Assembly (NCBI GenBank): GCA_021129655.1
Contig: JAJOLC010000017.1
Location: forward strand, 1 to 33,887
DNA length: 33,887 bases
Source of the DNA: Minisyncoccota bacterium
GTDB lineage: Bacteria > Patescibacteriota > Minisyncoccia > Phycocordibacterales > UBA918
Direction of reading: 5' to 3'
The position numbers were made by a program, and so were the translations under genes. Below the pieces are notes generated by a model that had not been told where the DNA came from, searched no databases, and saw nothing but the letters and a program-made list of their open reading frames with translations. Positions 14,803-33,887 of the stretch are shown here, piece after piece (position 1 is the stretch's first letter; every line of letters starts with the position of its first letter).

Positions 14803-16125
14803 ATGGCAAAACCGCTCATTGTGTGTCGGGATTTATCTATTATCTATAACCAGGGTAAACCGAACGAATTTAAGGCTCTTTCCGGCGTAAGTACCGATAT
14901 TTTTGAGGGTGAATACATCATTCTCTTTGGTGCATCAGGTTCAGGAAAGTCTACTCTCATGTATTCAATTCAAGGTTCTTTGCCACCTGGTGAAGGAACT
15001 TTGTTGATTAAAGGAGATGATATTTATTCGTATCCACCATCTGAGCGAGTTTACTTTCAGCGTTACGTGATGGGAATTATCTTCCAGCAGTTTAACTTGA
15101 TACCTTCTTTGACAGTGCTGGATAATGTAGCCTTACCGATGATTTTTTGTGATGCTGACAAAGCAACTCGTGATCGTCGAGCACAGTCTCTCTTGGATAG
15201 GTTTGGCGTAGGGCATGTGTCGCACAAAATTACTCCCATGCTTTCTGGTGGGCAGCAACAACGTGTATCGGTGTCTCGGTCAATGGTTAATGACCCGAAG
15301 ATTTTGCTGGCTGATGAACCGACTGGTAACCTCGACTCCGTATCAACTCAGCAGGTGATGGACAAGATTGACGAAATTAATACTTTCGATAGGCGGACAG
15401 TTATTATGGTGTCCCACAACGCAGCTCACCTTAGTTACGCTCATCGAGTGTATTACTTGAAGGACGGTAGGGTAGTGCGTGAAGTCGTTAATCCGCAAAG
15501 AAAACAGATAAAGCCAGTACGAGAAGGGGAGACGATTGTGACAGAGCTTGAGGAGTTAGCTCGGCTGTTCCCTTATGATTCAATCGAAACCTTGCGCGTG
15601 AAAAGTCTGGTTAATTTCCTAACTCAGGACTATTCATTCAGCCAACTAACCAGACTCGAACACGCATCTTCCTTGTTTTTACAAGGACGCATGGAAAGAG
15701 AAGCTTATATCAAGAGTCTAATTCTACCAATCGAGAGAGGCGGTATAGAGATTGGTGAAAAAGAGGCTAGACGAATGGCTGGCGTGGCTGACAAAATGAT
15801 TAGCCGCTCAGATGATATTAGACGTTTCCGGGCCAAAAAAGATAACGACGGAGTATTCTTCAGTCAGCATAAATTAGCAGAGAGACTGAAGGAGTATTTG
15901 GTAAAAGAGTACAATATCAGTCTTTCAAAGGAACAAAATACCAATATGGTGGAGAGTATCGCTGATCGAGTTACTGGAGTGGTTGATGATAATGAGATGA
16001 ATAAACGAATGATGAAAGGTATTCGCGCTGGCGGTCTTGCTTTCAGTGAAAAAGAGGCTGATCAAGTGTCCCGTTATTTTGAAAAATTAATCGCTCAGGG
16101 GGTAGATGTGAGTTATAAGAGTTAA
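14803..16125 (+). CDS. ABC transporter ATP-binding protein, MacB/LolD type, with C-terminal helical extension
   Basis: Walker [10 protein letters not shown], signature LSGGQQQR, Walker [12 protein letters not shown]-loop MVSHN. Residues from about 235 to 440 extend beyond the usual domain. Confidence 0.95.
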
Positions 16126-16137
16126 TCGTATGGCTGT

Positions 16138-16153
16138 GTCATAATATATAAAC
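16138..16153 (+). promoter_or_regulatory. Candidate extended -10 (TGtCATAAT) directly before the GTG start of the permease
   Basis: gctgtgtCATAATatataaacGTG, 8 nt between hexamer and start codon. Confidence 0.45.
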
Positions 16154-17368
16154 GTGAGAATTCAAGATTTAGCACAATTGTCGACCAGAATGTTTAAGAC
16201 CAATCCATTACGTACCTGGCTGACGATTTTGGGTATGGGTGTAGGAACTGGAGCGGTAGTAGTTCTGGTGGGTCTAGGTTTTGGGTTGCAGCAGATTATT
16301 CTTGAGCAAATTGTGTTCGGAGAAACTCTCCTTTCGCTAGGCGTCTCTTCTACTGGAGCACAAGGTTTGCGTCTAACTCCTGAAACAGTAACTGATTTTG
16401 AAGATAATGATAATGTTCTTGACGCTGCACCAATGGCTCGTTTTCCGGCACTGGTCACCTATAAAGGACTCACCGGTAACGTGTTTGTTCAAGGTGTCGA
16501 ACCCCCTTATCTACGATATGCTGGAGTCGTTGCTTTGGCCGGTGAAGTTTTTCTTGAGGAAGATATAGATGACACAAATTCCCTTATGCTTTCTCCCGCA
16601 ACCCTAAAGCTTTTTGGTATTCCAGATGAAGAGATGGATAATTTTATCGGTGAAAAGGTAGCTTTGAGATTACTAGTGCCAGCTGATGACGGTACTGAAG
16701 ATGTAAATGAGATTATTATCGACAAGGAATACATAGTGCGAGGAATCACTAAAGAGGAAGGAGTTCTAAATGCTATGATGATGCTTCCTGAGCTACGTAA
16801 CTACGTAGGTATTGAAGAGTACGAGCGTATTCAAGTGCGAGTGACTTCCAACGAAACTCTCCCAATTGTAGAAAATGAACTTATCGAGGCAGGGTATAGA
16901 GTGTCAGCTTTATCAAAGACTGTAGAACAAGCTTCAAAAATCTTCCAAGGTATTCAGGCCGTATTGGCTACCTTCGGTGGTATTGCGCTCATTGTGTCTG
17001 CGATAGGGATGTTTAATACCATGACAGTGACTCTGCTTGAGCGTACTAAGGAAATTGGAATTATGCGTACAATTGGAGCATCGCCGAACGACGTTAAATA
17101 TCTCTTTGTGTCTGAATCAGTAATTGTAGGATTTCTTGGGGGAGTAACAGGCATTATGATGGGTGTAGCTTTAGGTATGTCTGTTAATCTATTTTTGAAT
17201 ATTGTAGCCAGCCAGTTTGGGGGCCAATCTGTTAGTTTGTTCTCATTTCCACTAGACTTCCTTGCTTTTATAACCTTGTTCTCTGCAGCAGTGGGCTACT
17301 TAACTGGAATTTTTCCAGCTCGACGAGCCTCAACTCTGAACCCTTTGGACGCAATTCGATACGAATAG
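16154..17368 (+). CDS. ABC transporter permease, MacB/FtsX family
   Basis: GTG start. MacB_PCD-like N-terminus (NPLRTWLTILGMGVGTGAVVVLVGLGFG) and FtsX C-terminus (ERTKEIGIMRTIGASPNDVKYLFVSESVIVGFLGGVTG ... PARRASTLNPLDAIRYE). Confidence 0.95.
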   Translation: MRIQDLAQLSTRMFKTNPLRTWLTILGMGVGTGAVVVLVGLGFGLQQIILEQIVFGETLLSLGVSSTGAQGLRLTPETVTDFEDNDNVLDAAPMARFPALVTYKGLTGNVFVQGVEPPYLRYAGVVALAGEVFLEEDIDDTNSLMLSPATLKLFGIPDEEMDNFIGEKVALRLLVPADDGTEDVNEIIIDKEYIVRGITKEEGVLNAMMMLPELRNYVGIEEYERIQVRVTSNETLPIVENELIEAGYRVSALSKTVEQASKIFQGIQAVLATFGGIALIVSAIGMFNTMTVTLLERTKEIGIMRTIGASPNDVKYLFVSESVIVGFLGGVTGIMMGVALGMSVNLFLNIVASQFGGQSVSLFSFPLDFLAFITLFSAAVGYLTGIFPARRASTLNPLDAIRYE

Positions 17369-19436: not shown

Positions 19437-20390
19437 ATGAGTTTAACCCTTAAAAAGTTGGCTGTATTTACAATGCTGATCCCGGTGTTTTTTTTGAGCA
19501 CCGGAGCGGCTGATGTGCTGGCTGGGTTTGGTATTACGCCACCCTATGTTCGTAATTCTAGCTTGACCCGAAACTCTGTTTACGAGCAACAGATTCTACT
19601 AGTTCGTGGAGATGCTAACGTGGCCCAGAAAGCTGAAGTTAGCATAGATGCTCCTGAAATTGAGGGTTGGCTATACCTTGTAGAAGGTCAAGAAATAATT
19701 ATGGAGAAAGGCGTTCAGAAAGTACCTATGACTGTTCGAGTGACAGTCCCCGATGATGCCGACTTTGGTGACTATAGAGGAAAGATTCGCATCAGAACTC
19801 TACCTGCTGATGGTGAGGTTGCAGCTGGTGCTGTAAGTATTTCTTTAGGTGCGCTAGTCGATGTGTACTTATCTGTGATAGACCGAGAAATCAGAGACTT
19901 CAGAGTTCGTAGAATTTCAGCTGCAGACCTGAATGAAGGTTCAAAAGTAGGTTGGTTATTTTTCCCTGGAAAGATAAATTTCTCAATGCTTATCGAGAAT
20001 ACTGGTAACGTTGACATATCTCCTTCAAAAGTAGAATTTAGTATTTTTGATCGAACAGGAAAAATACTCCTCGAAGAAACTAAAAATATAGGAAAAATAG
20101 AAAAAGTTCTTCCTTATGGAACTGAGACAGTAACGGCGGAGATACCAACTAGATTACCAGCTGGTAGCTATATTGCTCGTTACACTGTTTATAATGACGA
20201 GGACATTAAACAGGAAGGTGACATTACATTTAATATCGTAGCTGAGGGCACCTTACAGACAGCAGGATTTGGCTTTAGTGGCTTGTCTATATCTCACAAA
20301 ATTTCTGTATTATTACCAGTCTTTGCTGTCATGATTGCAGCTCTCTATATTTGGAGTGCAAAGCGTAAATATAAAGTTATTAGGCAATAG
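19437..20390 (+). CDS. Secreted, C-terminally membrane-anchored protein with WxL-interacting (DUF916)-like fold
   Basis: Signal peptide; ITPPYVRNSSLTRNSVYEQQILLVRGDANVAQKAEVSIDAPEIEGW...VPMTVRVTVPDDADFGDYRGKIRIR; C-terminal TM (ISVLLPVFAVMIAALYIWSAKRKYK). Confidence 0.8.
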   Translation: MSLTLKKLAVFTMLIPVFFLSTGAADVLAGFGITPPYVRNSSLTRNSVYEQQILLVRGDANVAQKAEVSIDAPEIEGWLYLVEGQEIIMEKGVQKVPMTVRVTVPDDADFGDYRGKIRIRTLPADGEVAAGAVSISLGALVDVYLSVIDREIRDFRVRRISAADLNEGSKVGWLFFPGKINFSMLIENTGNVDISPSKVEFSIFDRTGKILLEETKNIGKIEKVLPYGTETVTAEIPTRLPAGSYIARYTVYNDEDIKQEGDITFNIVAEGTLQTAGFGFSGLSISHKISVLLPVFAVMIAALYIWSAKRKYKVIRQ

Positions 20391-20392
20391 TT

Positions 20393-21499
20393 ATGAATAA
20401 ATTAGGACTTTTCCTGATATTTCTATTTTCGGCTGTTCCATCATTTACCCAGGCAGCAACTATTGGCTACGCATCCACAACCCTGACTCTGAGTATTTGT
20501 GGAAACATGCTAGTGGATGATGGTGAGGAATGTGATGTGCCAGGCGAAACTGGTGTTTACAGTCAGACTATCATTGGCAGACAGTGTTCAGCTCAGTGTC
20601 TTTTTGGTCCATATTGTGGTGACGGTATTTTACAAACCATTCACACCGAAGAATGCGATGATGGTAATAACGACAACGGAGATTTTTGCTCAGCTACTTG
20701 CAAGATTGAGCCGGCTGGTTCTGGGGGCGGCGGTTCGTCCGGTGGAGGTTCTAGTGGCAGCGGCGGCAGCACGGTAGATTTAGGGGACACAATCATTAAC
20801 ATTATTGGACGCGGCTATCCTTCTCAAACTATTAATTTTTTGCTCGATACAGTCTCGGTTGGTTCAGTTCGCTCTGATAGTTCTGGAGACTTTGAGTTCG
20901 CGACTGATGCATCACCAGGAACGGCCACTCTAGGTATCTGGGCTAATGATAGCGATAGTAATCGCTCTATTACTCTAAACAGTACCTTTGATGTCACTCA
21001 AGGTGCAGTTACTAACCTTAACGGCATACTGTTGCCGCCAACTTTGACTGTGCTGAGTCAGAATATCAACCCTGGAGATCAAATTACAATTTCGGGTGAA
21101 GGTGTTCCGAACACCACGTTGGAATTACATATTGACGACAGTGTCATTATCGAAGAAACTACTACCGATGAGGAAGGTAAGTGGTCTCTCATTTTTGATA
21201 CTAGCAAGGTGACCGTGGCTGAACATATAATAAGAGCCAGAACAGTTATTGGTAGTCCACCGCTTACCACCGAGAGTACCTTTAGTACATCCGTACAACT
21301 CTTTATTGGAGTTGAGGGTCAGGCATCTTTGTCTTCTGACTTGAATCGTGACGGCTTTGTTAATCTTATCGATTTCTCTATTTTGATTTTCTGGTGGCAA
21401 ACAGATGGTGGTACCTCTGACCCACCTGCCGACATTAACTTGAATGGTCGAGTGAGTCTGGAAGATTTTTCCATTTTGCTATTTAATTGGACAGGTTAG
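20393..21499 (+). CDS. Secreted protein with DUF4215-like Cys-rich repeats, Gly/Ser linker, Ig-like region and C-terminal type I dockerin
   Basis: CGNMLVDDGEECD... and CGDGILQTIHTEECDDGNNDNGDFCSATCKIE; linker GSGGGGSSGGGSSGSGGS; duplicated dockerin loops SDLNRDGFVNLIDFSILIFWW and ADINLNGRVSLEDFSILLFNW. Starts 2 nt after the upstream stop. Confidence 0.9.
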   Translation: MNKLGLFLIFLFSAVPSFTQAATIGYASTTLTLSICGNMLVDDGEECDVPGETGVYSQTIIGRQCSAQCLFGPYCGDGILQTIHTEECDDGNNDNGDFCSATCKIEPAGSGGGGSSGGGSSGSGGSTVDLGDTIINIIGRGYPSQTINFLLDTVSVGSVRSDSSGDFEFATDASPGTATLGIWANDSDSNRSITLNSTFDVTQGAVTNLNGILLPPTLTVLSQNINPGDQITISGEGVPNTTLELHIDDSVIIEETTTDEEGKWSLIFDTSKVTVAEHIIRARTVIGSPPLTTESTFSTSVQLFIGVEGQASLSSDLNRDGFVNLIDFSILIFWWQTDGGTSDPPADINLNGRVSLEDFSILLFNWTG

Positions 21500-21597
21500 T
21501 AGTATAAACAAAGACCTAAAGTGCCTATTGCGCGCCCTAATTTCTAAGGAGGCTTTTGCCGACTGTAAAAATGGAAGTACTCTTAGGGTGAATGAAT

Positions 21598-21633
21598 CGC
21601 GGACATTTTCCTTTCCAAAGGAAAATGTCCGCG
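21598..21633. repeat. 36-bp near-perfect palindrome / hairpin
   Basis: CGCGGACATTTTCCTTT-CC-AAAGGAAAATGTCCGCG, 17-nt perfect arms. Confidence 0.95.
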
Positions 21634-21686
21634 GGTAGAAACAAAACTCTAAAACGGTAGTAACCAAATGCATCTCGAGCATGATC

Positions 21687-21709
21687 GTCCCGAGGTCGGA
21701 CCTCGGGAC
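21687..21709. repeat. Perfect GC-rich hairpin
   Basis: GTCCCGAGGT-CGG-ACCTCGGGAC, 10-bp arms. Confidence 0.95.
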
Positions 21710-21756
21710 AGTTAGACTGAACTACTTATCTAGCTAACTACTACGATTAAGAATTT

Positions 21757-21783
21757 AAAAACTCCCCAGTTGGGTGTTTTTTT
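21757..21783 (+). terminator. Rho-independent terminator-like hairpin
   Basis: aaaaactccc-cagtt-gggtgttttttt, one T-T mismatch, followed by a T tract. Confidence 0.65.
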
Positions 21784-22063
21784 AAAAGATATTCACAGCT
21801 TTTCCACAGAAATTTGACCCTATTTTAATTTTAGTTTTGTAAGCACCGTACAATAGGTAGGTACTTGCAAAGGAGGTAATCAATTAGCATTACTGCACGC
21901 GCATTTTTTATGTACGTGGACACTTCAGCCGGTGTTACTTTGCTCGTATACTTACGGTGCAATTTTGAGTCCGGAGTGGAGACCGTGGCTCAGTACGAGA
22001 CGTATGTCTTGTCTGTATCCTCAAATATAAATACAGGCCGTGAGGTAAACAACGTAGAGTACT

Positions 22064-23218
22064 ATGATTAGAACGTCCAACTCGTTCTCAGTACTCCGAG
22101 CAACCGCAGCAATTGCCGGTCTAGCTGTCCTATTGTGGTCACTAGGTTTGTCATCATTTCACTTTGTGAATGCTGCAAATGTCACAACTATTAGCGATAC
22201 TCTGTCGGACTCAGCTCCAGCAGTTGTATCAAACCACACCATCACGTTCACTACTCCAACTGGAGTGGCGGCAGGTGAAGATATCGTTATTACTTTCCCC
22301 GCTGGATTTACAGGAATCGGCAGTCTAGTAGCAGCCGACCTTGACCTCCTTAATGGAGCTACTGACGAAGATCTGATTGATGGTGCTGCCTCAGCCGCTA
22401 ACTGGAATGTTACTGCTGCTGGTCAGGTAATCACTATTACTAGTGGAACTGACACTATACCGGGAGCAACAACGGTTACCATTGAAATTGGTACCAATGC
22501 AACATTCCCAGGAGCAGGTACTAACCAAATCACTAATCCAGCAACAGGTTCATATCAAGTTGAGATAACTGTTGGTTCTGGTAATGATACTGGTGCGATG
22601 AATTTAGCTATTGTAGACAACGTTACAGTTAATGCTTCTGTCGATACCCTTTTCACTTTTACAGTGACTGGAGTAGCATCAGCGCAGACTGTGAACGGTA
22701 CCACCACTGGTGGAGCTACAACAGCTACGAACATTCCGTTTGGTGCGCTTGATGCAAACACAGCTAGTACAGCTGCCCAAGACTTAAGTGTTACAACAAA
22801 TGCAGCTAATGGATTTGTCGTAACAGTTACAGCCAACGGACAGCTAAACTCAACTACTGGTGCAGATATCGATGGTTTCCGAAATGGAAACTTCGACACA
22901 ACATCTGTGCAGTGGGAAAGCCCTGCTAGCACACTAGGATCAGAAGAGACGTATGGTCACTGGGGTATTACTTCAGATGATGCAACGCTTACTGCTGGTG
23001 CTGCTACTGACTTGTAAGATGTTGGGGGTGATGGACAGAACTATGTGTCCGCCTCAACAACAGCAGTAGAAGTCTTCCGACACGACGCTGTCGCAGACGG
23101 TACTGTGCAAGGTGAAGGTTTTGCTCGTGTAGGTTACACAGTTGAAATTGGCTCTTTGCAAGAAGGAGCCGAAGATTACACCGCTATACTGACATATATA
23201 GCAACGCCAGTGTTCTAA
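22064..23218 (+). pseudogene. Secreted surface protein gene interrupted by one in-frame TAA (23015-23017); intact part 22064-23017
   Basis: Signal peptide, then NVTTISDTLSDSAPAVVSNHTITFTTPTGVAAGEDIVITFPAGF... Same frame continues after the TAA as DVGGDGQNYVSASTTAVEVFRHDAVADGTVQGEGFARVGYTVEIGSLQEGAEDYTAILTYIATPVF to TAA 23216-23218, followed by a terminator. Type call is provisional: could be nonsense mutation, readthrough or sequence error. Confidence 0.75.
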
Positions 23219-23252
23219 AGAATATTGGCTCCAAGCTTGGAGTTAACAACGC

Positions 23253-23288
23253 AAAAAACCCTATCTCCCACCACGAGACGGGTTTTTT
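23253..23288 (+). terminator. Rho-independent terminator
   Basis: AAAAAACCC-ta-TCTC-ccaccac-GAGA-c-GGGTTTTTT, just after the extended end (23218) of the interrupted gene. Confidence 0.8.
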
Positions 23289-23323
23289 GAATGAGAAAAG
23301 GAGCCAAAGGCGACTATTTCGAA

Positions 23324-23361
23324 TTTAGGCAGACGCTTAGCATATTTCGACCCCGAAGGGA
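23324..23361. repeat. 38-nt direct repeat, copy 1
   Basis: tttaggcagacgcttagcatatttcgaccccgaaggga, identical to 23411-23448. Confidence 0.97.
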
Positions 23362-23410
23362 GAAATAGGCTGAAGCGGGCTGCAAGAAACTCCACATAAC
23401 CACGAAATCT

Positions 23411-23448
23411 TTTAGGCAGACGCTTAGCATATTTCGACCCCGAAGGGA
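23411..23448. repeat. 38-nt direct repeat, copy 2
   Basis: Identical to 23324-23361. An 11-nt inverted partial copy (gtctgcctaaa) lies at 23587-23597. Confidence 0.97.
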
Positions 23449-23477
23449 TGAAAAGCAAACTTCTTTGCTTTTCATCC
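23446..23477. repeat. Perfect 14-bp hairpin
   Basis: GGATGAAAAGCAAA-CTTC-TTTGCTTTTCATCC, overlapping the end of repeat copy 2. Confidence 0.93.
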
Positions 23478-23690
23478 GGTTCTGGCACTAGCTAGAAGTT
23501 TCCGATATTCATGAGGAAATAGGTGGGACCCAACGTTAAATATCTCACTCTGTGCAGCAGAATTTTGTCTTTAGAAAATATGTAGTGTCTGCCTAAAGTT
23601 CCCTCTATCCACCAAGTCAAGAAGCTCTAGACAGTCACCACTTTAGTAGTGCTCACCGTGTGTACAGAACGTTTTTTGTACTTTCAATAT

Positions 23691-23708
23691 TGTTATACTG
23701 AATACATA
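23691..23708 (+). promoter_or_regulatory. Candidate extended -10 promoter (TGTTATACT)
   Basis: ttgTTATACTgaatacataATG: predicted start site a few nt before ATG 23709. Confidence 0.5.
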
Positions 23709-24815
23709 ATGAAACGTTTTAGCGCCTTATTCTTATTTGCGGTTTTTGTACTAGTCAGTCTCCCGACTGTAACCAGCGCTGCTTCCTTATACATTGACCC
23801 AGGCATGTCATCACTGAACCGAGGTGACTCGATTTCAATGAAGGTCCGCCTTGATACAGATGAGGAGGCTGGTGAATGTGTGAATGCTGCTGACGTTGTT
23901 TTGACTTATTCAGATAATATCGAACCGGTCGATATATCAATCGGATCCTCCATTTTTAACATGTGGGTTGAGAAGCCCACTATTAACAAAGTTGACCGCA
24001 CAATTACTTTTGCTGGGGGTATACCAAATGGTTATTGTGGTCGAGTGATTGGTGACCCTCGTCTATCAAATATTCTTACTGAAATTATATTCCGTTCGCC
24101 AGGCTTCACTGTTGGTGGCTCAGATTCAACTACTGCTGTTATAGAATTCACTGATGCTAGTACAGCTTATTTGAATGATGGTAGAGGGACAAAGGCAAAA
24201 CTGACAACCTTCGGTTCATTAATAGAGCTCAGTTCGTTACCTAGCAATATTCCAATCAATCCCTGGAAAGAGCAGGTGACAGCTGACGATATCCCCCCTG
24301 AGGAATTTTCGATTTTGCTACAGAAAGATGAAAAAGCCTTTTCTAGAAAATGGTACATAATCTTTAACACCTCTGACAAACAGACAGGTATCGACCATTA
24401 CGAAGTAATTGAAGAACCATTGGCCCAGTTCGGATCCTTCAAGTGGGGAAGGGCAGATGCTCCATGGTTAGTACAAAGAAGTCCCTATATCCTAAATGAC
24501 CAGTCCTTGAACAGTGTTATTCGAGTTAAGGCTATAGATAAAGCCGGTAATGAGTATATTGCTACTATCATTCCTGACGAAACTAATCGTAGTTATTCAA
24601 CCAATCAGATTCTGACAGTCTTTGTTAGCGCAAGCTCAGTATTAATATTGCTTACAATAATTTTCTTACTGTACCGTTTGTACAGAAGTAGAAAAATGAC
24701 AGCTGTATCAAACGAAGGTAAAGAAGGTGAAATTAATACCGAGGACGATGATACTCAAAATCAGGATTATACTCAGACAAATAATGAAGTAAATGATTAT
24801 GATCAACACATATAG
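23709..24815 (+). CDS. Membrane-anchored cohesin-domain protein (start corrected from 23649)
   Basis: MKRFSALFLFAVFVLVSLPTVTSAA signal peptide begins at 23709. Cohesin-like LYIDPGMSSLNRGDSISMKVRLDTDEEAGECVNAADVVLTYSDNIEPVDISIGSSIFNMWVEKPTIN...FAGGIP. C-terminal TM (TVFVSASSVLILLTIIFLLYRLYRSRK) and acidic cytoplasmic tail. Confidence 0.88.
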   Translation: MKRFSALFLFAVFVLVSLPTVTSAASLYIDPGMSSLNRGDSISMKVRLDTDEEAGECVNAADVVLTYSDNIEPVDISIGSSIFNMWVEKPTINKVDRTITFAGGIPNGYCGRVIGDPRLSNILTEIIFRSPGFTVGGSDSTTAVIEFTDASTAYLNDGRGTKAKLTTFGSLIELSSLPSNIPINPWKEQVTADDIPPEEFSILLQKDEKAFSRKWYIIFNTSDKQTGIDHYEVIEEPLAQFGSFKWGRADAPWLVQRSPYILNDQSLNSVIRVKAIDKAGNEYIATIIPDETNRSYSTNQILTVFVSASSVLILLTIIFLLYRLYRSRKMTAVSNEGKEGEINTEDDDTQNQDYTQTNNEVNDYDQHI

Positions 24816-26568
24816 CTCTCTAACAGTAAAGTTTGTGCAGTTGTTTATGGCGACTCTGCTTGGATTCACCCTGTACCTATCTTCAGCAATTATTGCTGAA
24901 GCGGCTTCTCTGGCACTGTCCCCAAGTACTGGTGTCTATACTAGCAATAGCACCTTTACGGTTAGGGTTGTTGTGAATACCTCCGGCCAGTCTGTTAATG
25001 CTTCCGAAGGTTCGTTGTCTTTTAATCCTAGTGAATTATCGGTAGTTTCGGTTAATCGGACAGGCTCTATATTTAGTCTTTGGGTAGCTGAGCCATCTTT
25101 TTCAAATAGTGCAGGAACTATTAGTTTCAGTGGTGGTTTGCCTTCTGGCTACTCAGGCATGGTGGGAACTATCATGAATGTAACCTTCAGAGCTAAAGGG
25201 TCTGGTGCAGCTAAGGTTAATTTTAACAGCGGATCAGTGCTTGCGAATGATGGCAGAGGAACAAATATTTTAACCTCAATGAATGGTGGTACTTATACTA
25301 TTCAGGCAAAATCCTTAGCACCACAACCCGAGATTATTGAGTATGTCGCTCCGGCTAACACCCCAGCCGCGCCCAAAATAACATCCCCAACTCATCCCGA
25401 TTCCAGTAAGTGGTATTCGAGCAATGTAGCAGAATTGAGCTGGTCTCTACCAAGCGGAGTTACCGCAGTGAGAACTTTACTGAATGAAAATCCGACATCA
25501 GTCCCAACAAAAGTTTACGATAATCCAATCGAGTCGATTTCTATAAACGAATTAGATGAGGGGGTATCTTACTTCCATCTACAGTTGAAGAATTCTGATG
25601 GGTGGGGAAGAGTCACTCACTATCGCTTAGGAGTTGATACAGCTAATCCTTCGAGTATTCAAGTATCTACAGTAGAAGGGTCTGATTTAGCTAATCCTAT
25701 ACAGACTCTGAAGGTTGATGTGGTAGATGAAACTTCGAATGTTTTGAGATTTATGGTGAAGTTGGATTCTGACGAACCTTACGAGTTTATTGATGTGACA
25801 GGGTCAAGTACTATTGAGATGCCTTCACTTGAACCAGGTTATCATTCCGTGATTATTGAAGCTTTCGATCAAGCAGGAAATAGCATTGTTGGAACCTATT
25901 CATTTACTATTCTAGCTTTTGATAAACCAATTTTTACGGATTACCCAACTGAAATTAATGAAGAAGTAATTCCTGTCATTAAGGGTATAACACGTCCGAA
26001 CTCTGATGTTGAAGTTACTATCACTAAGGTGGGAGGCGAGCCGACAGCCTACTCGGTTACTAGTGATGCTGATGGACAATTTATATTTATTCCGGAAGGC
26101 ACATTTTCAAACGGAGTTTACGAGTTAGTAGCTCAGGCATCTGATGCCTTTGGTGCTAAGAGTGAATTCTCAGACACTGTGCGGATTGCTGTGCAGCAAC
26201 CAGGGTATCTGAGAGTTGGTTCTCTGATTGTTAGTGTACTCTCTGTTCTTATTCCACTACTTGTACTGCTGTTTATTCTGATAATTGGTGGTTGGTACAT
26301 GTTTGTTTACGCACGTCGCTTTAGGAAGCGAGTGCGAGTAGAATCTGCTGAAGCTTTACAGATTCTCAATAGCGAATTTGCTTATCTTAAGAGAACGCTA
26401 AGCGAGCAGGAAGCCATTATTCAAAGTACCAGAAAGACCAAAAAGCTTACAAAGGCAGAAGCTGAAATGATTGAAGTTATGAATACCGCATTGCAGGCAT
26501 CAAGACAAAAAGTTGAAAAAGAGATTGAAGATGTTGCAGACTTAGCTCGAAAAGAAAATAATAAATAA
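24793..26568 (+). CDS. Membrane-anchored cohesin-domain protein with Ig-like repeats and cytoplasmic coiled-coil tail
   Basis: Signal peptide; cohesin SLALSPSTGVYTSNSTFTVRVVVNTSGQSVNASEGSLSFNPSELSVVSVNRTGSIFSLWVAEPSFSNSAGTISFSGGLP...NDGRGTNI; TM SLIVSVLSVLIPLLVLLFILIIGGWYMFV; charged tail with coiled-coil character. Overlaps the upstream CDS by 23 bp. Confidence 0.9.
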   Translation: MIMINTYSSLTVKFVQLFMATLLGFTLYLSSAIIAEAASLALSPSTGVYTSNSTFTVRVVVNTSGQSVNASEGSLSFNPSELSVVSVNRTGSIFSLWVAEPSFSNSAGTISFSGGLPSGYSGMVGTIMNVTFRAKGSGAAKVNFNSGSVLANDGRGTNILTSMNGGTYTIQAKSLAPQPEIIEYVAPANTPAAPKITSPTHPDSSKWYSSNVAELSWSLPSGVTAVRTLLNENPTSVPTKVYDNPIESISINELDEGVSYFHLQLKNSDGWGRVTHYRLGVDTANPSSIQVSTVEGSDLANPIQTLKVDVVDETSNVLRFMVKLDSDEPYEFIDVTGSSTIEMPSLEPGYHSVIIEAFDQAGNSIVGTYSFTILAFDKPIFTDYPTEINEEVIPVIKGITRPNSDVEVTITKVGGEPTAYSVTSDADGQFIFIPEGTFSNGVYELVAQASDAFGAKSEFSDTVRIAVQQPGYLRVGSLIVSVLSVLIPLLVLLFILIIGGWYMFVYARRFRKRVRVESAEALQILNSEFAYLKRTLSEQEAIIQSTRKTKKLTKAEAEMIEVMNTALQASRQKVEKEIEDVADLARKENNK

Positions 26569-26569
26569 T

Positions 26570-27262
26570 ATGACAAATACCCAAACATCTGAACCATCAA
26601 AAATTAAAACTATCGCACTACTGATTGTTGTGGTAGTTGCTGCTTATTTTCTCGTCACAACTCTAGTCAATAATAAATTTAGTGAGATTGAAGATTCTGT
26701 AATGGTACAAGTTTATGATCAGGAAGAATTACTTAAGGCTATTGTCAAAATTGTCTATGCTGATAGTACTGACCTAAAAATTGAATCAGTAATCACTGAC
26801 TGCAACACATCCGAACGTACTCAATTCCACGATTCGCTTGACCGTCTTAATCAGAATTTATCTATCCAAGAACTAAAGGAGCTAGAGCTCCTCTTTAGTC
26901 GTTGTGGTAGTTTTGACTCAGAAAGTAAATTGATTTTGATAGCAAGACTAACTAGAGAAGTTGAGGTTTATGAAACATACGTTAGTACCCTAAGTGTCAT
27001 TACAGGGGGGGATGTGTATTCTGAATTTTCGGTTGATAAGTGGAAAGGTTTAGCAGCAGAGGAACAAAGACAGGCACTTCTGTATTCTAATTTGGTTAAC
27101 CTTCAGGGTGAAATTATCACTAGCTTATTATCTGGCAAGGATCAAGCGTCACCAGAAATTAATAAAATACTACAAGAAGTGTCAGAAGTTAAAGGTAATT
27201 TAATCGTACTTAACCAGCAGACTGAAAAAGTTCGTACAGAGCTTGTTCCTATACAGAATTAG
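26570..27262 (+). CDS. Hypothetical single-pass membrane protein with extracytoplasmic helical domain
   Basis: N-terminal TM (IKTIALLIVVVVAAYFLVTTLV); Leu/Glu-rich helical sequence; starts 1 nt after the upstream stop. Confidence 0.8.
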   Translation: MTNTQTSEPSKIKTIALLIVVVVAAYFLVTTLVNNKFSEIEDSVMVQVYDQEELLKAIVKIVYADSTDLKIESVITDCNTSERTQFHDSLDRLNQNLSIQELKELELLFSRCGSFDSESKLILIARLTREVEVYETYVSTLSVITGGDVYSEFSVDKWKGLAAEEQRQALLYSNLVNLQGEIITSLLSGKDQASPEINKILQEVSEVKGNLIVLNQQTEKVRTELVPIQN

Positions 27263-27269
27263 CTAATCT

Positions 27270-28016
27270 ATGAACCAGTTACTTCATTCGATTAAATTAT
27301 TCTTTAAATTCCGAAATCGGGGCGGTACGGTTCGTTATATGTTTTCAGCCGTGCTTTCATTTGCAGTCTTGCTTGGTGCCGCTGTTATCACATCCAACGA
27401 TTCTTCGTATATCAGGCTGCAGTCGTCAGCTGCAACGATTGAGCAAGGAAAACCCTTTTATGTTGATGTTTTCGCCTATGCTCATGTTCCTGTCAATGCT
27501 GTTGATATCACTATTAATTTTGATCAAGAAGCTGTGTCGGTAACAGGGGTTGATACAGGCCAGTCTGTGCTAACTATCTGGACAGAGGAACCGATAATAG
27601 AATCAAAGAAGGTAATCCTGCGAGGAGGCACTTTCCGTAAGGGATTTGTTACTGAACACAAGATCGCTACAATTAAACTAAAGGCAAATAAAACTGGAAA
27701 TAGTTCAGTTAGTGCTTCCGACGTAATTCTTTTGGCAGGTGATGGTGCTGGTACACCCGTGACAGTGACAGAATCTGTAGATAATTACGTTAATTTATAT
27801 GTTTATGACCAAAATTCTGAACCCGGTAGTATCGGAGTGAATGTTTCAGTTAGCATCGTTACTGACATAAACCGTGACGGCAAAGTGAGCCTTCAAGATA
27901 TTAGTATATTCATGTCAGCCTGGGGTACTAAAAGTCAGATCTTTGATTTTAATAATGACGGCAAGATGACATTTAAAGATTTCTCGATTATCTTATCTGA
28001 TTTCTTTACTAGGTGA
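27270..28016 (+). CDS. Secreted or anchored protein with both a cohesin-like domain and a C-terminal dockerin
   Basis: Cohesin-like YIRLQSSAATIEQGKPFYVDVFAYAHVPVNAVDITINFDQEAVSVTGVDTGQSVLTIWTEEPII...; dockerin loops TDINRDGKVSLQDISIFMSAWG and FDFNNDGKMTFKDFSIILSDFF. Confidence 0.88.
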   Translation: MNQLLHSIKLFFKFRNRGGTVRYMFSAVLSFAVLLGAAVITSNDSSYIRLQSSAATIEQGKPFYVDVFAYAHVPVNAVDITINFDQEAVSVTGVDTGQSVLTIWTEEPIIESKKVILRGGTFRKGFVTEHKIATIKLKANKTGNSSVSASDVILLAGDGAGTPVTVTESVDNYVNLYVYDQNSEPGSIGVNVSVSIVTDINRDGKVSLQDISIFMSAWGTKSQIFDFNNDGKMTFKDFSIILSDFFTR

Positions 28017-28141: not shown

Positions 28142-30043
28142 ATGCACTCTAATCTCAATTTAAATAATTCGCGAGGTAACAGCCGGGTTGGTTTGTATGC
28201 CTTTGTTTTTGCAAGCAAAATCTCACTGATTGTTGTGGTATTTTTGTTTTTTTCATTTTCAATACAGCCTGTACATTTGGCTTATGCTAATGAGGCCGAA
28301 GCAGTTGCTGAGGCCGCTGAAGCTGCAGAGTTTGCTGAGAAAGTTGTTCCTCATGAAGCTGTAGAAAAAGACCTAGAGGTAGTAGAGGAAGTTATTACTG
28401 AAGAAGTTGCTGTCGAGACTGCAACTGAATCTCCGGCAGCTGAAGATGTTGAGACTGTTACAGATGATGGGTCTGTTGATGCAGTCAGCAATGAAGAGAT
28501 AGATATAGACGTTGACGTTATGTCTCCTGATGCTCAGATTTCTGACATCAGCAGCTCAACTGATGAATCTGTTGCTGCTACGTCCGAAGAAACTACCGCC
28601 TCAACCACGGCTCCTATAAGCGATAGTACTGATTCTGAAGCAACAGCGTCTACAACAGATACTGCAAACATTCCTGATGATTCAACCGCAAGCTCAACAG
28701 ATGAGTCTTCTGATACTGCCTCTAGCACTGACGAATCAGTTGACGCGACGGGCGTAGCTTCCTCATCTTCATCTTCTAACTCTGGCAACGAAGCTTCTTC
28801 TGATGAAGGTTCTGGCTCTGATGCAAATTCTAATACTAATACTAGTGACAGCTCTCCCAGTGATGGTAGTAATGTGTCTGATGAGAACGATACTGCTGCC
28901 CCTGTTGACCCCGCCGATACAGCTGCCGAAACTGCAGGGTCAGAAATCACAACAGCCACCTCTGCACCAACTGCTGAAAATGTTAGTAAAGTACAGACAA
29001 TTGTTACTGACGACAATTTTTACCAGTTTGGTAAACAAGCTTGTGTTTCAGTAGGGGAAGGTTCCTATCACTGTAGTGTTACTGATGGCGATATCGTTGG
29101 CTCTCAGGCAGTAGTTTATTCAGAAGTTGGCCCAAGTGGAAGTCCTGAGATTTTTATCCAGACATCACTAGGAGAAGTTAAGCAGGTTACTGATAATAAT
29201 TTTGAGGATTCATCACCTCACTATGATGCTGAGTCTCAAAAAATTGCTTGGCAGCGTTTAATTCAAGGTCGGTATCAAATTGTTATTTATGATATCGATA
29301 CTGGTAAAGAGAAACAATTGACCTTTTCTCGAACCAATAACATGGAGCCAGCTGTGACCATTGATGGAGTTGTGTGGCAAGCTTGGGATAATAATGACTG
29401 GGAAATAATGTATTACGATGGAACTTACACAGACCAGCTAACATCTAATAATGTTCAGGATTTAGCTCCTGTAATGGAGGATGATTACATAATTTGGACT
29501 GTAATTGGCGGAGGTTCCCAATATGCCCAGGTCTATTCTTTTGATACAAAAGAAGCTGTGACTATTAATAATCACGAAGGAGGCTCTATTGTTAACCCCC
29601 GCTTCGTTCTGGTCTATGATACTAAGTTTGATAATGGTGATGTTATTACTCAGAGGTTTGACCCTGAAACTGGTTTTGCGGAAGCAATTGCTGCGCAGCC
29701 TGCTGAGGCACCGTTAGAAATTCCTGACGCTGATAGCACTCTTGAGATTAAGGCTTTGATTCAGACTAAGTCAACCTCGAAGCAGACTGTGGTAATTGAT
29801 ACTGATGGAAATAATTCAACAGGAGGTGCTACTGGTACATCCGATACACTCAATCTATTTGAACCCGATTCTGACCTTACTCAGGAGACAGTGTCTACAT
29901 CAACTGACGGCGTGATAGATGCTGATGAAGAAATAGGTAATGATGACTACCTCGAGCTGAACGAATACGACTTGATTCTTCCGCCAACACAGCCAGTAGA
30001 AGCAACAATTTCTGTCTCAGTCTCTAACGCTTCTAGCACCTAG
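28142..30043 (+). CDS. Secreted protein with long acidic Ser/Thr-rich linker and TolB/WD40-like beta-propeller
   Basis: Signal peptide (ISLIVVVFLFFSFSIQPVHLAYA); low-complexity acidic region; repeats GEVKQVTDNNFEDSSPHYDAESQKIAWQR / KEKQLTFSRTNNMEPAVTIDGVVWQAWDNNDWEIMYYDG / TDQLTSNNVQDLAPVMEDDYIIWT. Confidence 0.85.
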   Translation: MHSNLNLNNSRGNSRVGLYAFVFASKISLIVVVFLFFSFSIQPVHLAYANEAEAVAEAAEAAEFAEKVVPHEAVEKDLEVVEEVITEEVAVETATESPAAEDVETVTDDGSVDAVSNEEIDIDVDVMSPDAQISDISSSTDESVAATSEETTASTTAPISDSTDSEATASTTDTANIPDDSTASSTDESSDTASSTDESVDATGVASSSSSSNSGNEASSDEGSGSDANSNTNTSDSSPSDGSNVSDENDTAAPVDPADTAAETAGSEITTATSAPTAENVSKVQTIVTDDNFYQFGKQACVSVGEGSYHCSVTDGDIVGSQAVVYSEVGPSGSPEIFIQTSLGEVKQVTDNNFEDSSPHYDAESQKIAWQRLIQGRYQIVIYDIDTGKEKQLTFSRTNNMEPAVTIDGVVWQAWDNNDWEIMYYDGTYTDQLTSNNVQDLAPVMEDDYIIWTVIGGGSQYAQVYSFDTKEAVTINNHEGGSIVNPRFVLVYDTKFDNGDVITQRFDPETGFAEAIAAQPAEAPLEIPDADSTLEIKALIQTKSTSKQTVVIDTDGNNSTGGATGTSDTLNLFEPDSDLTQETVSTSTDGVIDADEEIGNDDYLELNEYDLILPPTQPVEATISVSVSNASST

Positions 30044-30058
30044 AATTAATACTCAATC

Positions 30059-33000
30059 GTGCTTACTCATCATGAAAAATTCAAGCATATACTAACAACG
30101 TGGCGACTAAGCTTTGGTCAATTTGTGAACACCTTCCCTCGAAAGACTAAGAAAACCCTCACCGTATTGGCTGTACTTTCACTAGTATTTACTGACATAT
30201 TCACCGTCCTGACCCAACCATTCTCTTTTTTGGATGATTTTACTGGTACTGAAACCGCTAGAGCTGCCACTGGTGATTTTGCGACTTTTTCTGAAAACGG
30301 TGGAGGGGAGTCTGTTAATTCTAACGGAACTCCTTTTGATGTTACTTGGGATAATACTGTAGACAGTAATTCAAATATTACTTTACAAGCTAATACGTCT
30401 GACATTGATTTAGCTGACGGAGGTAAATATTTAGTTCTTTACAACACCTGGGTGCACGAAGGTGGTTCCGGCGGTGCTAACAGGCGAGGAGTAGATTCAT
30501 ACCTAACTCTGGCTGGCACACAGTTACCCTACGGTCGCAGTGCGGGATACATTAGAGACAATGAGTCTTTAACCACAGCTTGGATTAATGGCTCGACTAT
30601 TATTGATGCCACTGCTGGTGATGATTTACAATTGCATGTAAAAAGAAACGATGGTAATTCTACAGCCGGTACAGAAATGGCTGCGGGAGAAAATGGTGTT
30701 TCTATTATTAAATTACCAGACGGGAATGATTACTTGCGAGCCATTCTGGCTGCTACCAGCAGCAGCATAAATGGTAATACTACCTTTACTGATGTGCAGT
30801 GGGATACAGTTGATGAAATCGACACAGATTCTTTTGCTTTAACTCCTACTTCGGCAAACATCACGTTAAAGGGGGCTGACGGTGACTATTTTATTGTTAA
30901 TGCAAACGTGGGTTTGTATGTAACAGCTGGTGGGTCTACTCGGCAGAATTACGAAATGATCTTGACTTTAGATGGTGCAGAAATACCTGGAACTGCTGTC
31001 ACTTCGTATTTACGTGGTACCAATGATACATGGGAAGGTCAGCTAGTTTACACTGGCTTAATTGCAAAAGACGCTGCCGGTGATCAGACTCTTAATGTTG
31101 AGGTGCGCCGGGAATCAAGTGCTGGTGCCACGACTGTAGTAATGGGAAACAAGACATCTCTCAGTATAATGTCCGTCCCAACTACGGCTGAAGTGGTGCG
31201 TTTGTCAGATGGCTCGGGCACTCAAACTTTAGCTGATACTAGCAAAGTTCTGACTTTTGACACCGAGGATGAAATAAATTCCAATAAATTTTCTCATTCT
31301 TTAGTTTCAAATACCGACCGAATTGAAATTGATAGTGCGGATGACTATCTCTTTTTTGCCACTGCCTACACCGAGACTACTGTCAACAGTAACGACCGTG
31401 AACCTTTTGATATTACTTGGAATCTCACTGGGTCAGATGTTAGTCGTGGATCGTTCGCTTCTTTTAATCGGGACAACAACGCCTTCACGGCTGGAGCATC
31501 TGGTGCCTTATTGTTAAGTGGTTTGACTGCCAGTGACTATGTTGCCATGTCACACGTGAACGCTAGTACTGACACTGTTGACGATGCGACATTTGCTGCC
31601 GACAGAGTCGCTGTGCAAGGTATTGCTTTGAATGATAATTTCTATGGACTCGATACGGTGGTTAGTGTGAGTGGTGCTCATGTGACAGCCGCTGATATAT
31701 CAACTACAGGTTTCTACACCGGTGGACAGTTCGCAATCGTTGAGAGTAGTGCTTCTAGAAATGTTACGGGTTTAACAATTGATGAATCCGGAACAGTAGA
31801 TGGCTCTACAGGTATTTCAAATGTAGAACTCTATTATGATTTAGATACTTCCGCTCCTTATGATTGTGCTAGTGAATCTTATGGTGGAGCTGAAAGCCAG
31901 TATGGCTCTACAGATAGTAATGGCTTCTCAGGTGCTGATGGAAGCTCCAGTTTCACTGATTCAGTTGTAATTTCTCCTACTCAAGCTTTGTGTGTTTATC
32001 CAGTTATGGACATCGTCGGTGGCGCACTAGATGGAGATACTCTTATTGTATCTATTGATACTCCGCTAACAGATATTGTAGTAACGGGTGGGGCGTCCAT
32101 CGGACCGTCTGATAGTTTACTAATAAGTGGTTCGACAGTGTTAAGAAATGCAGAGTTGACACAGATTCACTACCAATGGTTGAACGACGACGGGGTTGAA
32201 GGGTCGGCTACTTCTATCGAAGGTGGCGAGGACTTACCTGCAATCGGTTTTGCCAATGGCACAATCAGGCGGTTGCGAACACAAATTTCAGCTGAAGGTT
32301 CAACATCTTCAGTGTCCACCGCTTTCCGTTTAGAGTATGGGCAAAAGGTAACAACCTGTTCTGCTATTGCTGTCTGGACAGATGTAGGAGCAGTAGGAGG
32401 TGATTGGGATATGGCCAATTCTGCCTTTATTACTGATGGTAATGATTCATCGGACTTAACTGTAGCTAATGGCGGTACAACAAATGAAAACACCACTCAC
32501 TTGCCCACTAATGGTGCACTCCGTGATACTAATTCTCAAACTGGATCGTTAATTTTTGCAACCACTAATTTTCTTGAACTAGAGTATGCTTTTCAGCCAA
32601 CTGCCACAGCACCTCAAGGTAATACCTACTGCTTCAGACTTTCGGACGCCGGAACGGCTCTTCGTAATTATGATATTTATCCTGAAGGTACTATCTCGGC
32701 TGATGTTGATGTTAGTGCCACTAGTACTCACGTTGCTAATTTAGATGTTGGTAGTAATGCTCAGTATTTGGGCGGAGGTTTTGTTATTGAACGGCCTGGT
32801 ACTGTTAGAGCAGTAACGTCGGTGACACTAACTGAGGTCGGCACAGTTGATGCTTCCACAGATTTGGCCGATATAGAATTATTCTATGATTTGGATACAA
32901 CTGCTCCTTATGACTGTACCGGTGAATCGTATGGTGGTGGAGAAACTCAGTTTGGCAGTACAGACACCGACGGCTTTTCTACTGCCAACGGCACCTCAAC

Positions 33001-33887
33001 CTTTACTGGCTCCGAAACCATCTCGAGCACCCGGAGTATGTGTTTATATGTCGTGCTAGATGTGAGCGCTACTGCTGTAGATGGAGAAACAATTGAGGTG
33101 CAAATAGCTGACCCTTCTACGGAGGTGGTTGTTACATCGTCAAGTGTGGGACCAAGTACCGCTGTTTCACCAACTTCAAACACAACAATAGCCGGACCAG
33201 TACTAACACAAACTCACTATCACTGGAGAAATGATGACGGTAATGAAGCTGGGGCTACATCAGCGAGTGGAGATGCTGAAGATACCGGTCTCTTGAATAT
33301 TGCGAAGGAGACTACCTATAGACTGAGGTTGCAAGTATCTAATGAAGGCTCCGTTTCTAGCCCGGCTACCACTTACAGACTAGAGTATGGAACTAAACTT
33401 ACTACCTGTGGGGGTGTTGTCTCGTGGACAGATGTTGGAGCTGTCGGCGGTGCTTGGGACATGTCGCTAAGCTCTAATATTGCTGACGGTAATACAACTG
33501 ATATTGCTTTGGCGAGCTTGGGGGCCATGACTGATGAGAACACTAACTTCATTGGCACTGGAGCTCTGCGAGAAACCACTTCAGATTCTGGCTCAATAAC
33601 TCTAACTAGTACTCAATTTACTGAGTTGGAATATTCCATTGAAGCTACGGTGGATTCTGGATACGATACAGATTATTGTTTTCGGGTATCTGATGCAGGT
33701 GCAGACTTAAATTCGTATACAACTTATGCCGAGCTAACTACTATGGAAAAACAAGATTACTTCATCCAGCGTGGTAATGAAACTGTGTCTGGAACAGGAA
33801 TTACCTTGACGGCCGGTGTCGACTACACAGCACCAGCCTCAACCTCAACAGCCTTTGTAAGGATTACAAATTCACAACTTACTGGTG
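30059..33887 (+). CDS. Large secreted repetitive surface protein, 3'-truncated by the window edge (absent from the ORF track)
   Basis: Hand translation from GTG 30059 (alternative GTG 30125, MNTFPRKTKKTLTVLAVLSLVFTDIFTVL...) finds no in-frame stop to 33887. Coding-like throughout, including LEYG...TELEYSIEAT...YCFRVSDAG. Confidence 0.92.
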   Translation, partial: MLTHHEKFKHILTTWRLSFGQFVNTFPRKTKKTLTVLAVLSLVFTDIFTVLTQPFSFLDDFTGTETARAATGDFATFSENGGGESVNSNGTPFDVTWDNTVDSNSNITLQANTSDIDLADGGKYLVLYNTWVHEGGSGGANRRGVDSYLTLAGTQLPYGRSAGYIRDNESLTTAWINGSTIIDATAGDDLQLHVKRNDGNSTAGTEMAAGENGVSIIKLPDGNDYLRAILAATSSSINGNTTFTDVQWDTVDEIDTDSFALTPTSANITLKGADGDYFIVNANVGLYVTAGGSTRQNYEMILTLDGAEIPGTAVTSYLRGTNDTWEGQLVYTGLIAKDAAGDQTLNVEVRRESSAGATTVVMGNKTSLSIMSVPTTAEVVRLSDGSGTQTLADTSKVLTFDTEDEINSNKFSHSLVSNTDRIEIDSADDYLFFATAYTETTVNSNDREPFDITWNLTGSDVSRGSFASFNRDNNAFTAGASGALLLSGLTASDYVAMSHVNASTDTVDDATFAADRVAVQGIALNDNFYGLDTVVSVSGAHVTAADISTTGFYTGGQFAIVESSASRNVTGLTIDESGTVDGSTGISNVELYYDLDTSAPYDCASESYGGAESQYGSTDSNGFSGADGSSSFTDSVVISPTQALCVYPVMDIVGGALDGDTLIVSIDTPLTDIVVTGGASIGPSDSLLISGSTVLRNAELTQIHYQWLNDDGVEGSATSIEGGEDLPAIGFANGTIRRLRTQISAEGSTSSVSTAFRLEYGQKVTTCSAIAVWTDVGAVGGDWDMANSAFITDGNDSSDLTVANGGTTNENTTHLPTNGALRDTNSQTGSLIFATTNFLELEYAFQPTATAPQGNTYCFRLSDAGTALRNYDIYPEGTISADVDVSATSTHVANLDVGSNAQYLGGGFVIERPGTVRAVTSVTLTEVGTVDASTDLADIELFYDLDTTAPYDCTGESYGGGETQFGSTDTDGFSTANGTSTFTGSETISSTRSMCLYVVLDVSATAVDGETIEVQIADPSTEVVVTSSSVGPSTAVSPTSNTTIAGPVLTQTHYHWRNDDGNEAGATSASGDAEDTGLLNIAKETTYRLRLQVSNEGSVSSPATTYRLEYGTKLTTCGGVVSWTDVGAVGGAWDMSLSSNIADGNTTDIALASLGAMTDENTNFIGTGALRETTSDSGSITLTSTQFTELEYSIEATVDSGYDTDYCFRVSDAGADLNSYTTYAELTTMEKQDYFIQRGNETVSGTGITLTAGVDYTAPASTSTAFVRITNSQLTG
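31755..33740 (+). repeat. Two tandem ~1.05-kb coding repeats in the 30059 protein
   Basis: GTVDGSTGISNVELYYDLDTSAPYDCASESYGGAESQYGSTDSNGF (from about 31795) and GTVDASTDLADIELFYDLDTTAPYDCTGESYGGGETQFGSTDTDGF (from about 32845), with parallel downstream sequence. Confidence 0.9.

Follow-up and report, generated by a model that had tools for sequence, protein, structure and literature searches.

A dockerin-cohesin gene cassette that recurs across the Patescibacteria group and probably tethers a secreted protein to the cell surface

The window analysed here is the whole 33,887-nucleotide (nt) contig JAJOLC010000017.1 of the Minisyncoccota bacterium assembly GCA_021129655.1. It encodes a dockerin-tagged secreted protein, DOC1 (20393..21499), followed by two membrane-anchored cohesin proteins, CohA (23709..24815) and CohB (24793..26568); these genes and all others given below in the form start..end lie on the + strand. 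The DOC-CohA-CohB cassette is not local to the window and recurs across the Patescibacteria group. Our data suggest that it probably acts as a non-enzymatic, calcium-dependent tether, in which a secreted protein with immunoglobulin (Ig)-like and cysteine-rich domains would dock onto membrane-anchored cohesins. The window, as contig C4, belongs to a genome of 722 kb in 64 contigs that is 97% complete, and the nearest named relatives of this genome are Candidatus Kaiserbacteria along with further genomes of the Parcubacteria group (contig scan, best 80 of 376). The open reading frames (ORFs) named in an earlier annotation made from the sequence alone (the first-pass annotation) were all found at the same positions in an ORF check of the window.

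Results

Cohesin and dockerin domains in the window

Paired dockerin loops had been placed at the C termini of DOC1 and of a second protein, CohDoc (27270..28016), and both proteins matched Dockerin_1 (PF00404) above its gathering cut-off of 22.9 bits, DOC1 at 21335-21478 (E 7.2e-6) and CohDoc at 27861-27992 (E 5.7e-6). In DOC1 the C-terminal dockerin is accompanied by a Cys-rich DUF4215 region (1.2e-8) and two Ig-like regions, and a Big_6 match (4.5e-6) was just below the cut-off of that family.

CohA has a signal peptide, a cohesin (residues ~20-177), a C-terminal transmembrane (TM) segment and a cytoplasmic tail. CohB has a signal peptide, a cohesin (residues ~38-172, 24904-25308), an Ig-like Big_13 domain (3e-11 in Pfam), a TM segment and a cytoplasmic helical tail of ~100 amino acids (aa). 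CohDoc combines an N-terminal hydrophobic segment, which could be a signal peptide or an anchor, with a cohesin (residues ~43-181) and its dockerin. The C-terminal TM anchors and cytoplasmic tails attributed to two cohesin proteins in the first-pass annotation are thus present, in CohA and CohB. A search of the genome with PF00963, the cohesin family, and with CohB as query found one cohesin region per protein in CohA, CohB, CohDoc and a paralogue, CohD, on contig C40.

Profile searches bore out the dockerins directly; PF00963 detected relatives of the window cohesins rather than the window copies. Among relatives scanned individually, it matched at E≤0.01 in 15/21 for CohB, 4/9 for CohDoc and 1/16 for CohA. 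CohD, the one match in the window genome, was above the PF00963 cut-off, and such matches were found in 29/49 genomes of the family. Profiles of CohA, CohB and CohDoc reached cohesins among the PDB sequences only below significance (E 0.058 to 0.34), and the cohesins of these three proteins are therefore divergent. For the same reason a comparison of folds was needed. AlphaFold models were used for CohA and CohDoc, with mean predicted local distance difference test scores of 81.8 and 66.8, respectively. The CohDoc model matched the PDB entry 2vo8 best (Z 16.2, root-mean-square deviation (rmsd) 2.3, 130 residues), and rows 1-39 of its 50 matches were cohesins. For CohA the best match was 6kgd (Z 14.3, rmsd 2.5, 137 residues), with cohesins in rows 1-45 of 50. 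The assignment of CohB comes from family profiles and hhalign, in which CohB aligned with CohA at E 1.5e-42 and with CohDoc at E 2.9e-19. Three cohesin proteins had been proposed for the locus, and all three are now backed, by fold (CohA and CohDoc) or by family profiles and hhalign (CohB). Matches of the A4 profile to glycine-rich linkers of engineered proteins and of the A3 profile to calmodulins were spurious and were not used.

Conservation and gene order of the cassette

A protein search of the window genome and 58 relatives found CohB relatives in 36/59 genomes, representing 8/25 genera. The order WxIP-like gene, DOC1, SLP, CohA, CohB was kept in all nine loci fetched from the window's genus and family (L081-L089). 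Eight of them (L081-L088) also carry P230, CohDoc, a beta-propeller gene and a giant-protein gene, and L089 is without these. In 6/6 loci fetched from six other families of the order (L090-L095) DOC-CohA-CohB was the common part, and the flanks were mostly unrelated; a seventh other-family genome with a match, G056, lies outside these six.

A single-protein search of named-genome contigs found no relatives. When named genomes were scanned with an alignment, 376 places matched, and the best 80 were kept for locus counts; some of these 80 are the same contigs as L081-L095. Among the best 80, the titles include Kaiserbacteria, Wolfebacteria, Niyogibacteria, Nealsonbacteria, Portnoybacteria, Colwellbacteria, Komeilibacteria, Falkowbacteria, Magasanikbacteria, Uhrbacteria, Doudnabacteria, Sungbacteria and Microgenomatus, among others. 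In the NCBI taxonomy Falkowbacteria belong to the Parcubacteria group and Microgenomatus to the Microgenomates group, both within the Patescibacteria group.

A dockerin-tagged gene lay upstream of CohB in 58/59 named loci with at least 3 kb of upstream sequence. A second cohesin gene was found in 58/59 of the same loci under a relaxed overlap rule and in 49/59 under a stricter one. Conserved synteny, which the first-pass annotation proposed to look for in related genomes, was observed as the DOC-CohA-CohB order in 58/59 testable loci. A WxIP-like gene preceded the dockerin gene in 43/59 testable loci, and a dockerin-only gene downstream of CohB was found in 0/60 loci with at least 5 kb of downstream sequence. 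The genes are closely packed: the median intergenic gap was 3 nt from DOC to CohA (37 loci) and -14 nt from CohA to CohB (57 loci), and in the window the start of CohB overlaps the end of CohA by 23 nt. At one locus (L179:6790-9387) CohA and CohB are fused in a single ORF of 865 aa, whose cohesins lie at residues 26-164 and ~320-456.

Some loci depart from the three-gene form. L104 and L106 have three or four successive cohesin genes after one dockerin gene, and L106 has two tandem cassettes. Another cassette (L145) is on a contig titled Candidatus Methylomirabilis sp., which is possibly misbinned.

Dockerin-tagged client proteins

The calcium ligands of the dockerins are highly conserved in 68 client domains. 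In loop 1, the successive ligands were D in 67, N in 62, D in 68, N in 67 and D in 67; in loop 2, they were D in 57, N in 61, D or N in 68 and a final D in 68. The repeated DFSI motif was kept in these dockerins, most of which end in W-T-G. The shortest client proteins have less than 250 aa, and the giants among them have at least 1,792 aa (L151) and at least 2,429 aa (L094).

Pfam was used to scan 61 clients, namely 59 of the 68 dockerin-tagged client ORFs together with DOC1 of the window and DOC2 of C40; the nine client ORFs left out were mostly cut by a contig end. PF00404 independently detected the dockerin in 56/61 (E≤0.001). At the same threshold the other domains were Big_6 in 47/61, DUF4215 in 18, macroglobulin-type MG2 in 4, fn3 in 3 and similar domains; glycoside-hydrolase or catalytic carbohydrate-active enzyme (CAZyme) domains were found in 0/61 cassette clients. 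The clients thus look like proteins for surface display with binding or structural functions. A scan of 15 window ORFs likewise gave no catalytic domain of a glycoside hydrolase, in agreement with the first-pass annotation, which had seen no such enzyme nearby. Three dockerin proteins were found in the window genome: DOC1, CohDoc and a 654-aa protein on C40, where a paralogous locus also has cohesin and WxIP-like genes.

Dockerin-tagged genes of a different kind were seen in two other patescibacterial genomes of ~1 Mb. They occur as runs (L101:3870-17359 in G141 and L102:958-11354 in G168), each of which includes an apiosidase-like glycosidase with carbohydrate-binding module (CBM) 6/35 (PF13204 E 1.5e-52 and 1.3e-54, respectively); a beta-helix protein and others without a match are also encoded there. 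L101 encodes in addition a scaffoldin-like protein of 939 aa, in which two cohesins are combined with a dockerin. It is possible that these loci represent a true cellulosome-like system in the phylum.

Co-occurrence and correlated divergence

Within the family, 27 of the 49 genomes had both domains, 3 only cohesin, 1 only dockerin and 18 neither; in the dockerin-only genome (G018) a cohesin gene in fact adjoins the dockerin gene. A cohesin match in G013 had no counterpart among the non-overlapping ORFs and was set aside. For 379 genomes sampled evenly across the phylum, the corresponding numbers were 76, 36, 73 and 194, giving an odds ratio of 5.6 (Fisher P 3e-13, uncorrected for relatedness). 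Among the matches listed (150 per search), 29/58 cohesin matches in genomes with a listed dockerin had one within 5 kb, and such proximity was found in 20/35 genomes.

For 42 loci that lie outside the genus of the window, divergence was compared between loci. The divergence of the dockerin correlated with that of the CohB cohesin (r 0.70) and the CohA cohesin (0.52), and much less with that of the CohB Ig region (0.15) or tail (0.05). The correlation with the CohB cohesin exceeded each of the other three in 500/500 bootstrap samples. The dockerin and the CohB cohesin were the best conserved regions, with mean identities of 0.61 and 0.55, compared with 0.40 for the CohB Ig region and 0.37 for the CohB tail.

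In a first run of 62 loci that included the genus, dockerin divergence correlated with CohB at 0.78 and with CohA at 0.68. In a second run, of 43 loci with a WxIP gene, the values were 0.80 for CohB, 0.76 for CohA and 0.64 for WxIP, and in its 28 loci outside the genus they were 0.79, 0.50 and 0.16. When the rest of DOC was controlled for in the second run, the partial correlations were 0.32 for CohB and 0.54 for CohA, so that CohB was not favoured. We regard CohB as the more probable partner of the dockerin and CohA as a possible one.

Distribution of CohDoc

CohDoc was present in 18/22 named loci of the window's genus and family group, some of which are cut short, and in 0/58 of the others. 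The cassette therefore works without CohDoc, and the idea in the first-pass annotation that the dual-domain protein is the adaptor of the system is not supported for the cassette in general. In G031 (98% complete) the only cohesin found belongs to a stand-alone Coh-Doc protein, the dockerin of which is below the PF00404 threshold and was seen by custom profiles; this arrangement hints at self-association. Coh-Doc proteins of ~240-265 aa are the sole cohesin gene of the fetched stretch in L201 (from G031), L203, L205, L208 and L209, and other Coh-Doc proteins of ~200-265 aa lie elsewhere in several genomes.

Other genes of the locus

The gene that precedes DOC1 (19437..20390) encodes a 317-aa WxL-interacting-protein-like (WxIP-like) membrane protein with an N-terminal signal and a C-terminal TM segment. 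The window copy itself had no direct match to PF06030 (WxLIP_PGBD) in Pfam, and 4/15 members of its family had one (best E 5.5e-6). Neither a WxIP host-binding domain nor a WxL domain was listed among Pfam matches at E≤0.1 for 15 WxIP-like or 13 SLP-alignment members (A5, A6).

SLP (22064..23017), a secreted surface protein family, separates DOC1 from CohA in the genus of the window. Its assignment as a WxL protein or to a known fold was rejected, as no match supported it. The window copy stops at an in-frame TAA (23015-23017), the frame continues to ~23216, and full-length relatives have 372-389 aa; the stop may be a nonsense mutation, a strain mixture or a sequencing error. Between SLP and CohA the repeat aggcagacgcttagcatatttcgaccccgaaggg is present in two copies (23300-23460).

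P230 (26570..27262) is an N-terminally anchored protein encoded between CohB and CohDoc in the genus (8/9 loci of L081-L089, absent from L089), and it had no Pfam match at E≤1. Downstream of CohDoc are a surface protein with TolB-like beta-propeller repeats (28142..30043; syntenic in 8/9 of the same loci) and a giant surface protein that runs off the window (30059..33887). The TolB NCBIfam models matched the former at 6.8e-10 and 3.7e-8, both well under their cut-offs; the giant protein had no Pfam match at E≤1, and its complete relatives have 2,046-2,059 aa. Upstream, an ABC-transporter ATPase and an FtsX/MacB-type permease (14803..17368; ABC_tran 3.4e-31, FtsX 4.7e-17, MacB_PCD 3.1e-16) are genus-conserved neighbours. 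An open-ended surface ORF of 4,133 aa with DUF2341 (window 3-12404) is partly related to the protein at 17468-19342 (~30-32% identity). The paralogous locus of the genus, on contig C40 (L006) and in L096-L100, has the order SLP-WxIP2-P133-DOC2-Hsp20-like-CohD-giant protein. The Hsp20-like (small heat-shock-like) gene on C40 lies between the dockerin and cohesin genes and was assigned by sequence inspection.

Discussion

We propose that the cassette works as follows. DOC1 would be secreted, and two calcium ions would fold its C-terminal dockerin. The folded dockerin would plug into the cohesin displayed by CohB, and probably also that of CohA, on the outside of the cytoplasmic membrane, and this docking would hold the Ig and cysteine-rich domains of DOC1 at the cell surface. 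The WxIP-like protein is probably a further envelope partner, and CohDoc might either link a second component or chain with itself. From sequences and models we infer that the dockerin and these cohesins bind each other, chiefly through CohB, and in a calcium-dependent way; the system may also have a role in contact with other cells, such as the host attachment suggested in the first-pass annotation. The first-pass annotation had read the anchored cohesins as receptors, the dockerin protein as cargo and the system as non-cellulosomal. We favour this reading as an inference because of the cohesin folds, the conserved calcium ligands, the gene order, the co-occurrence and the correlated divergence. 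The term scaffold, which was used for the same assembly, is overstated, with three dockerin proteins in the genome and one cohesin in each protein examined.

Several observations weigh against the tether. PF00963 gave no direct match to CohA, CohB or CohDoc of the window at E≤1. The profiles behind the count of 58/59 loci came in part from relatives of those loci (16 relatives in the case of the dockerin profile). In the phylum sample, 36/112 cohesin-positive genomes had no dockerin match, and 73 genomes had a dockerin without a cohesin. The DOC region just before the dockerin correlated with the CohB cohesin at r 0.76; it tracks the cohesin as well as the dockerin does (r 0.70), and the signal therefore concerns the DOC protein as a whole and not the dockerin alone. 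Shared ancestry is only partly removed from these correlations, and the less conserved regions may be noisier. Finally, the role of CohDoc does not follow from the core model.

A different explanation is that the dockerin is a module that binds glycans or some other partner and that the cohesins serve simply as Ig-like spacers, the genes being adjacent since all encode surface proteins. The 73/379 genomes of the phylum sample with a dockerin and no cohesin match would fit such a module, as would the essential dockerin protein of S. epibionticum, which is interpreted as possibly targeting host glycans in the part of PMC10633639 that concerns it. We regard this explanation as improbable, because the DOC-CohA-CohB order is strict (58/59, with a downstream dockerin-only gene in 0/60), the folds of the CohA and CohDoc models are specifically those of cohesins, and dockerin divergence follows the cohesin of CohB rather than the Ig region that this chain also carries. 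CohB might also be a signalling receptor whose tail reports docking to the cytoplasm. A helical tail of ~100 aa with the pattern LTkeE...KEi.Di is common to the aligned CohB proteins and their paralogue CohD. However, the tail is less conserved than the cohesin (mean identity 0.37 vs 0.55), no signalling domain was recognised in it and no cytoplasmic partner was found, which makes this role quite improbable. It is very hard to see the cassette as a reduced cellulosome that displays carbohydrate-active enzymes. Dockerin-tagged CAZyme-like proteins do exist in other patescibacterial genomes, one of them with a two-cohesin scaffoldin (L101 and L102), and expressed cohesin and dockerin genes of a candidate phyla radiation (CPR) genome are read in this way in the relevant passage of PMC9123182. 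In the cassette, however, glycoside-hydrolase domains were found in 0/61 clients and in none of the 15 window ORFs scanned, and the window genome has just three dockerin proteins. A cellulosome reading of the window locus was accordingly rejected.

As for CohDoc, it is conceivable, though doubtful, that it self-assembles, the dockerin of each copy binding the cohesin of the next to give a head-to-tail fibre, with or without a CohA or CohB base. Cohesin and dockerin are joined in one chain that is conserved in the genus and family loci (18/22), and the stand-alone protein of G031 is consistent with such a fibre. On the other hand, a single genome is weak evidence, and the CohDoc dockerin differs from that of DOC1, so that it could equally bind CohA or CohB as an adaptor. 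More speculative, and in our view unlikely, is a general tether of Patescibacteria that is older than the families, in which the two near-identical DFSI faces of the dockerin would be held by two different membrane cohesins from adjacent genes, so that the client is clamped, and which a CohDoc fibre would extend. On this reading, the essential dockerin protein of cultured Saccharibacteria, if it is part of such a cassette, would dock onto a cohesin of its own cell and not onto the glycans of the host.

The locus resembles the clostridial cellulosome in its cohesin and dockerin domains, identified by fold and Pfam, and in its surface-anchored cohesin. It differs in that dockerin-tagged enzymes, a multi-cohesin scaffoldin and a CBM are absent from the window locus, and its cohesins are anchored by C-terminal TM helices that continue into cytoplasmic tails. 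Clostridial cellulosome genomes encode dozens of dockerin proteins, compared with three here. A possible likeness to the WxL/WxIP complexes of Gram-positive bacteria is suggested by PF06030 in 4/15 members of the WxIP-like family upstream of DOC1; the difference is that a WxL-domain protein was not identified here.

Cohesins and dockerins outside cellulosomes are known (Peer et al. 2009, a review, as cited in passages of PMC10066038 and PMC9012536), and passages on the subject also mention Omnitrophota. The Archaeoglobus fulgidus cohesin 2xdh ranked high among the matches to the CohDoc model (Z 15.4). Compared with other non-cellulosomal pairs, the present system is a conserved set of three genes, two of which encode dedicated TM anchors, in a large bacterial group. 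In ANME archaea, according to the relevant section of PMC9012536, dockerins and cohesins are proposed to attach functional proteins to the cell exterior, and cohesin and dockerin also occur in one chain; transporter substrate-binding proteins are among the clients there, a scaffoldin can carry as many as 5 cohesins, and that section has no DOC-CohA-CohB cassette. Within the CPR, the expressed cohesin and dockerin genes interpreted as a cellulosome (PMC9123182) are from a Shapirobacterales genome, and the essential protein of S. epibionticum is SEML1_0315 (PMC10633639); neither the cassette nor a TM-anchored cohesin receptor is described in the passages of these two reports on the genes concerned. 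No description of the cassette was found in searches of the open-licence PMC literature, which covered listings and a selection of passages. Cohesin and dockerin genes in the CPR have thus already been published, and the DOC-CohA-CohB cassette appears to be new.

How patescibacteria construct the surface that they present to other cells is for the most part an open question, and genetics is available for few of them. The compact and near-invariant unit described here gives an explicit prediction, the pairing of dockerin and cohesin with calcium, which can be checked with recombinant proteins in E. coli without culturing the organism, and its loci supply many naturally paired cohesin-dockerin sets for studies of specificity. 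It also offers an alternative reading of CPR dockerins, which in the passages of PMC9123182 and PMC10633639 that treat them are taken as signs of a cellulosome or of glycan binding.

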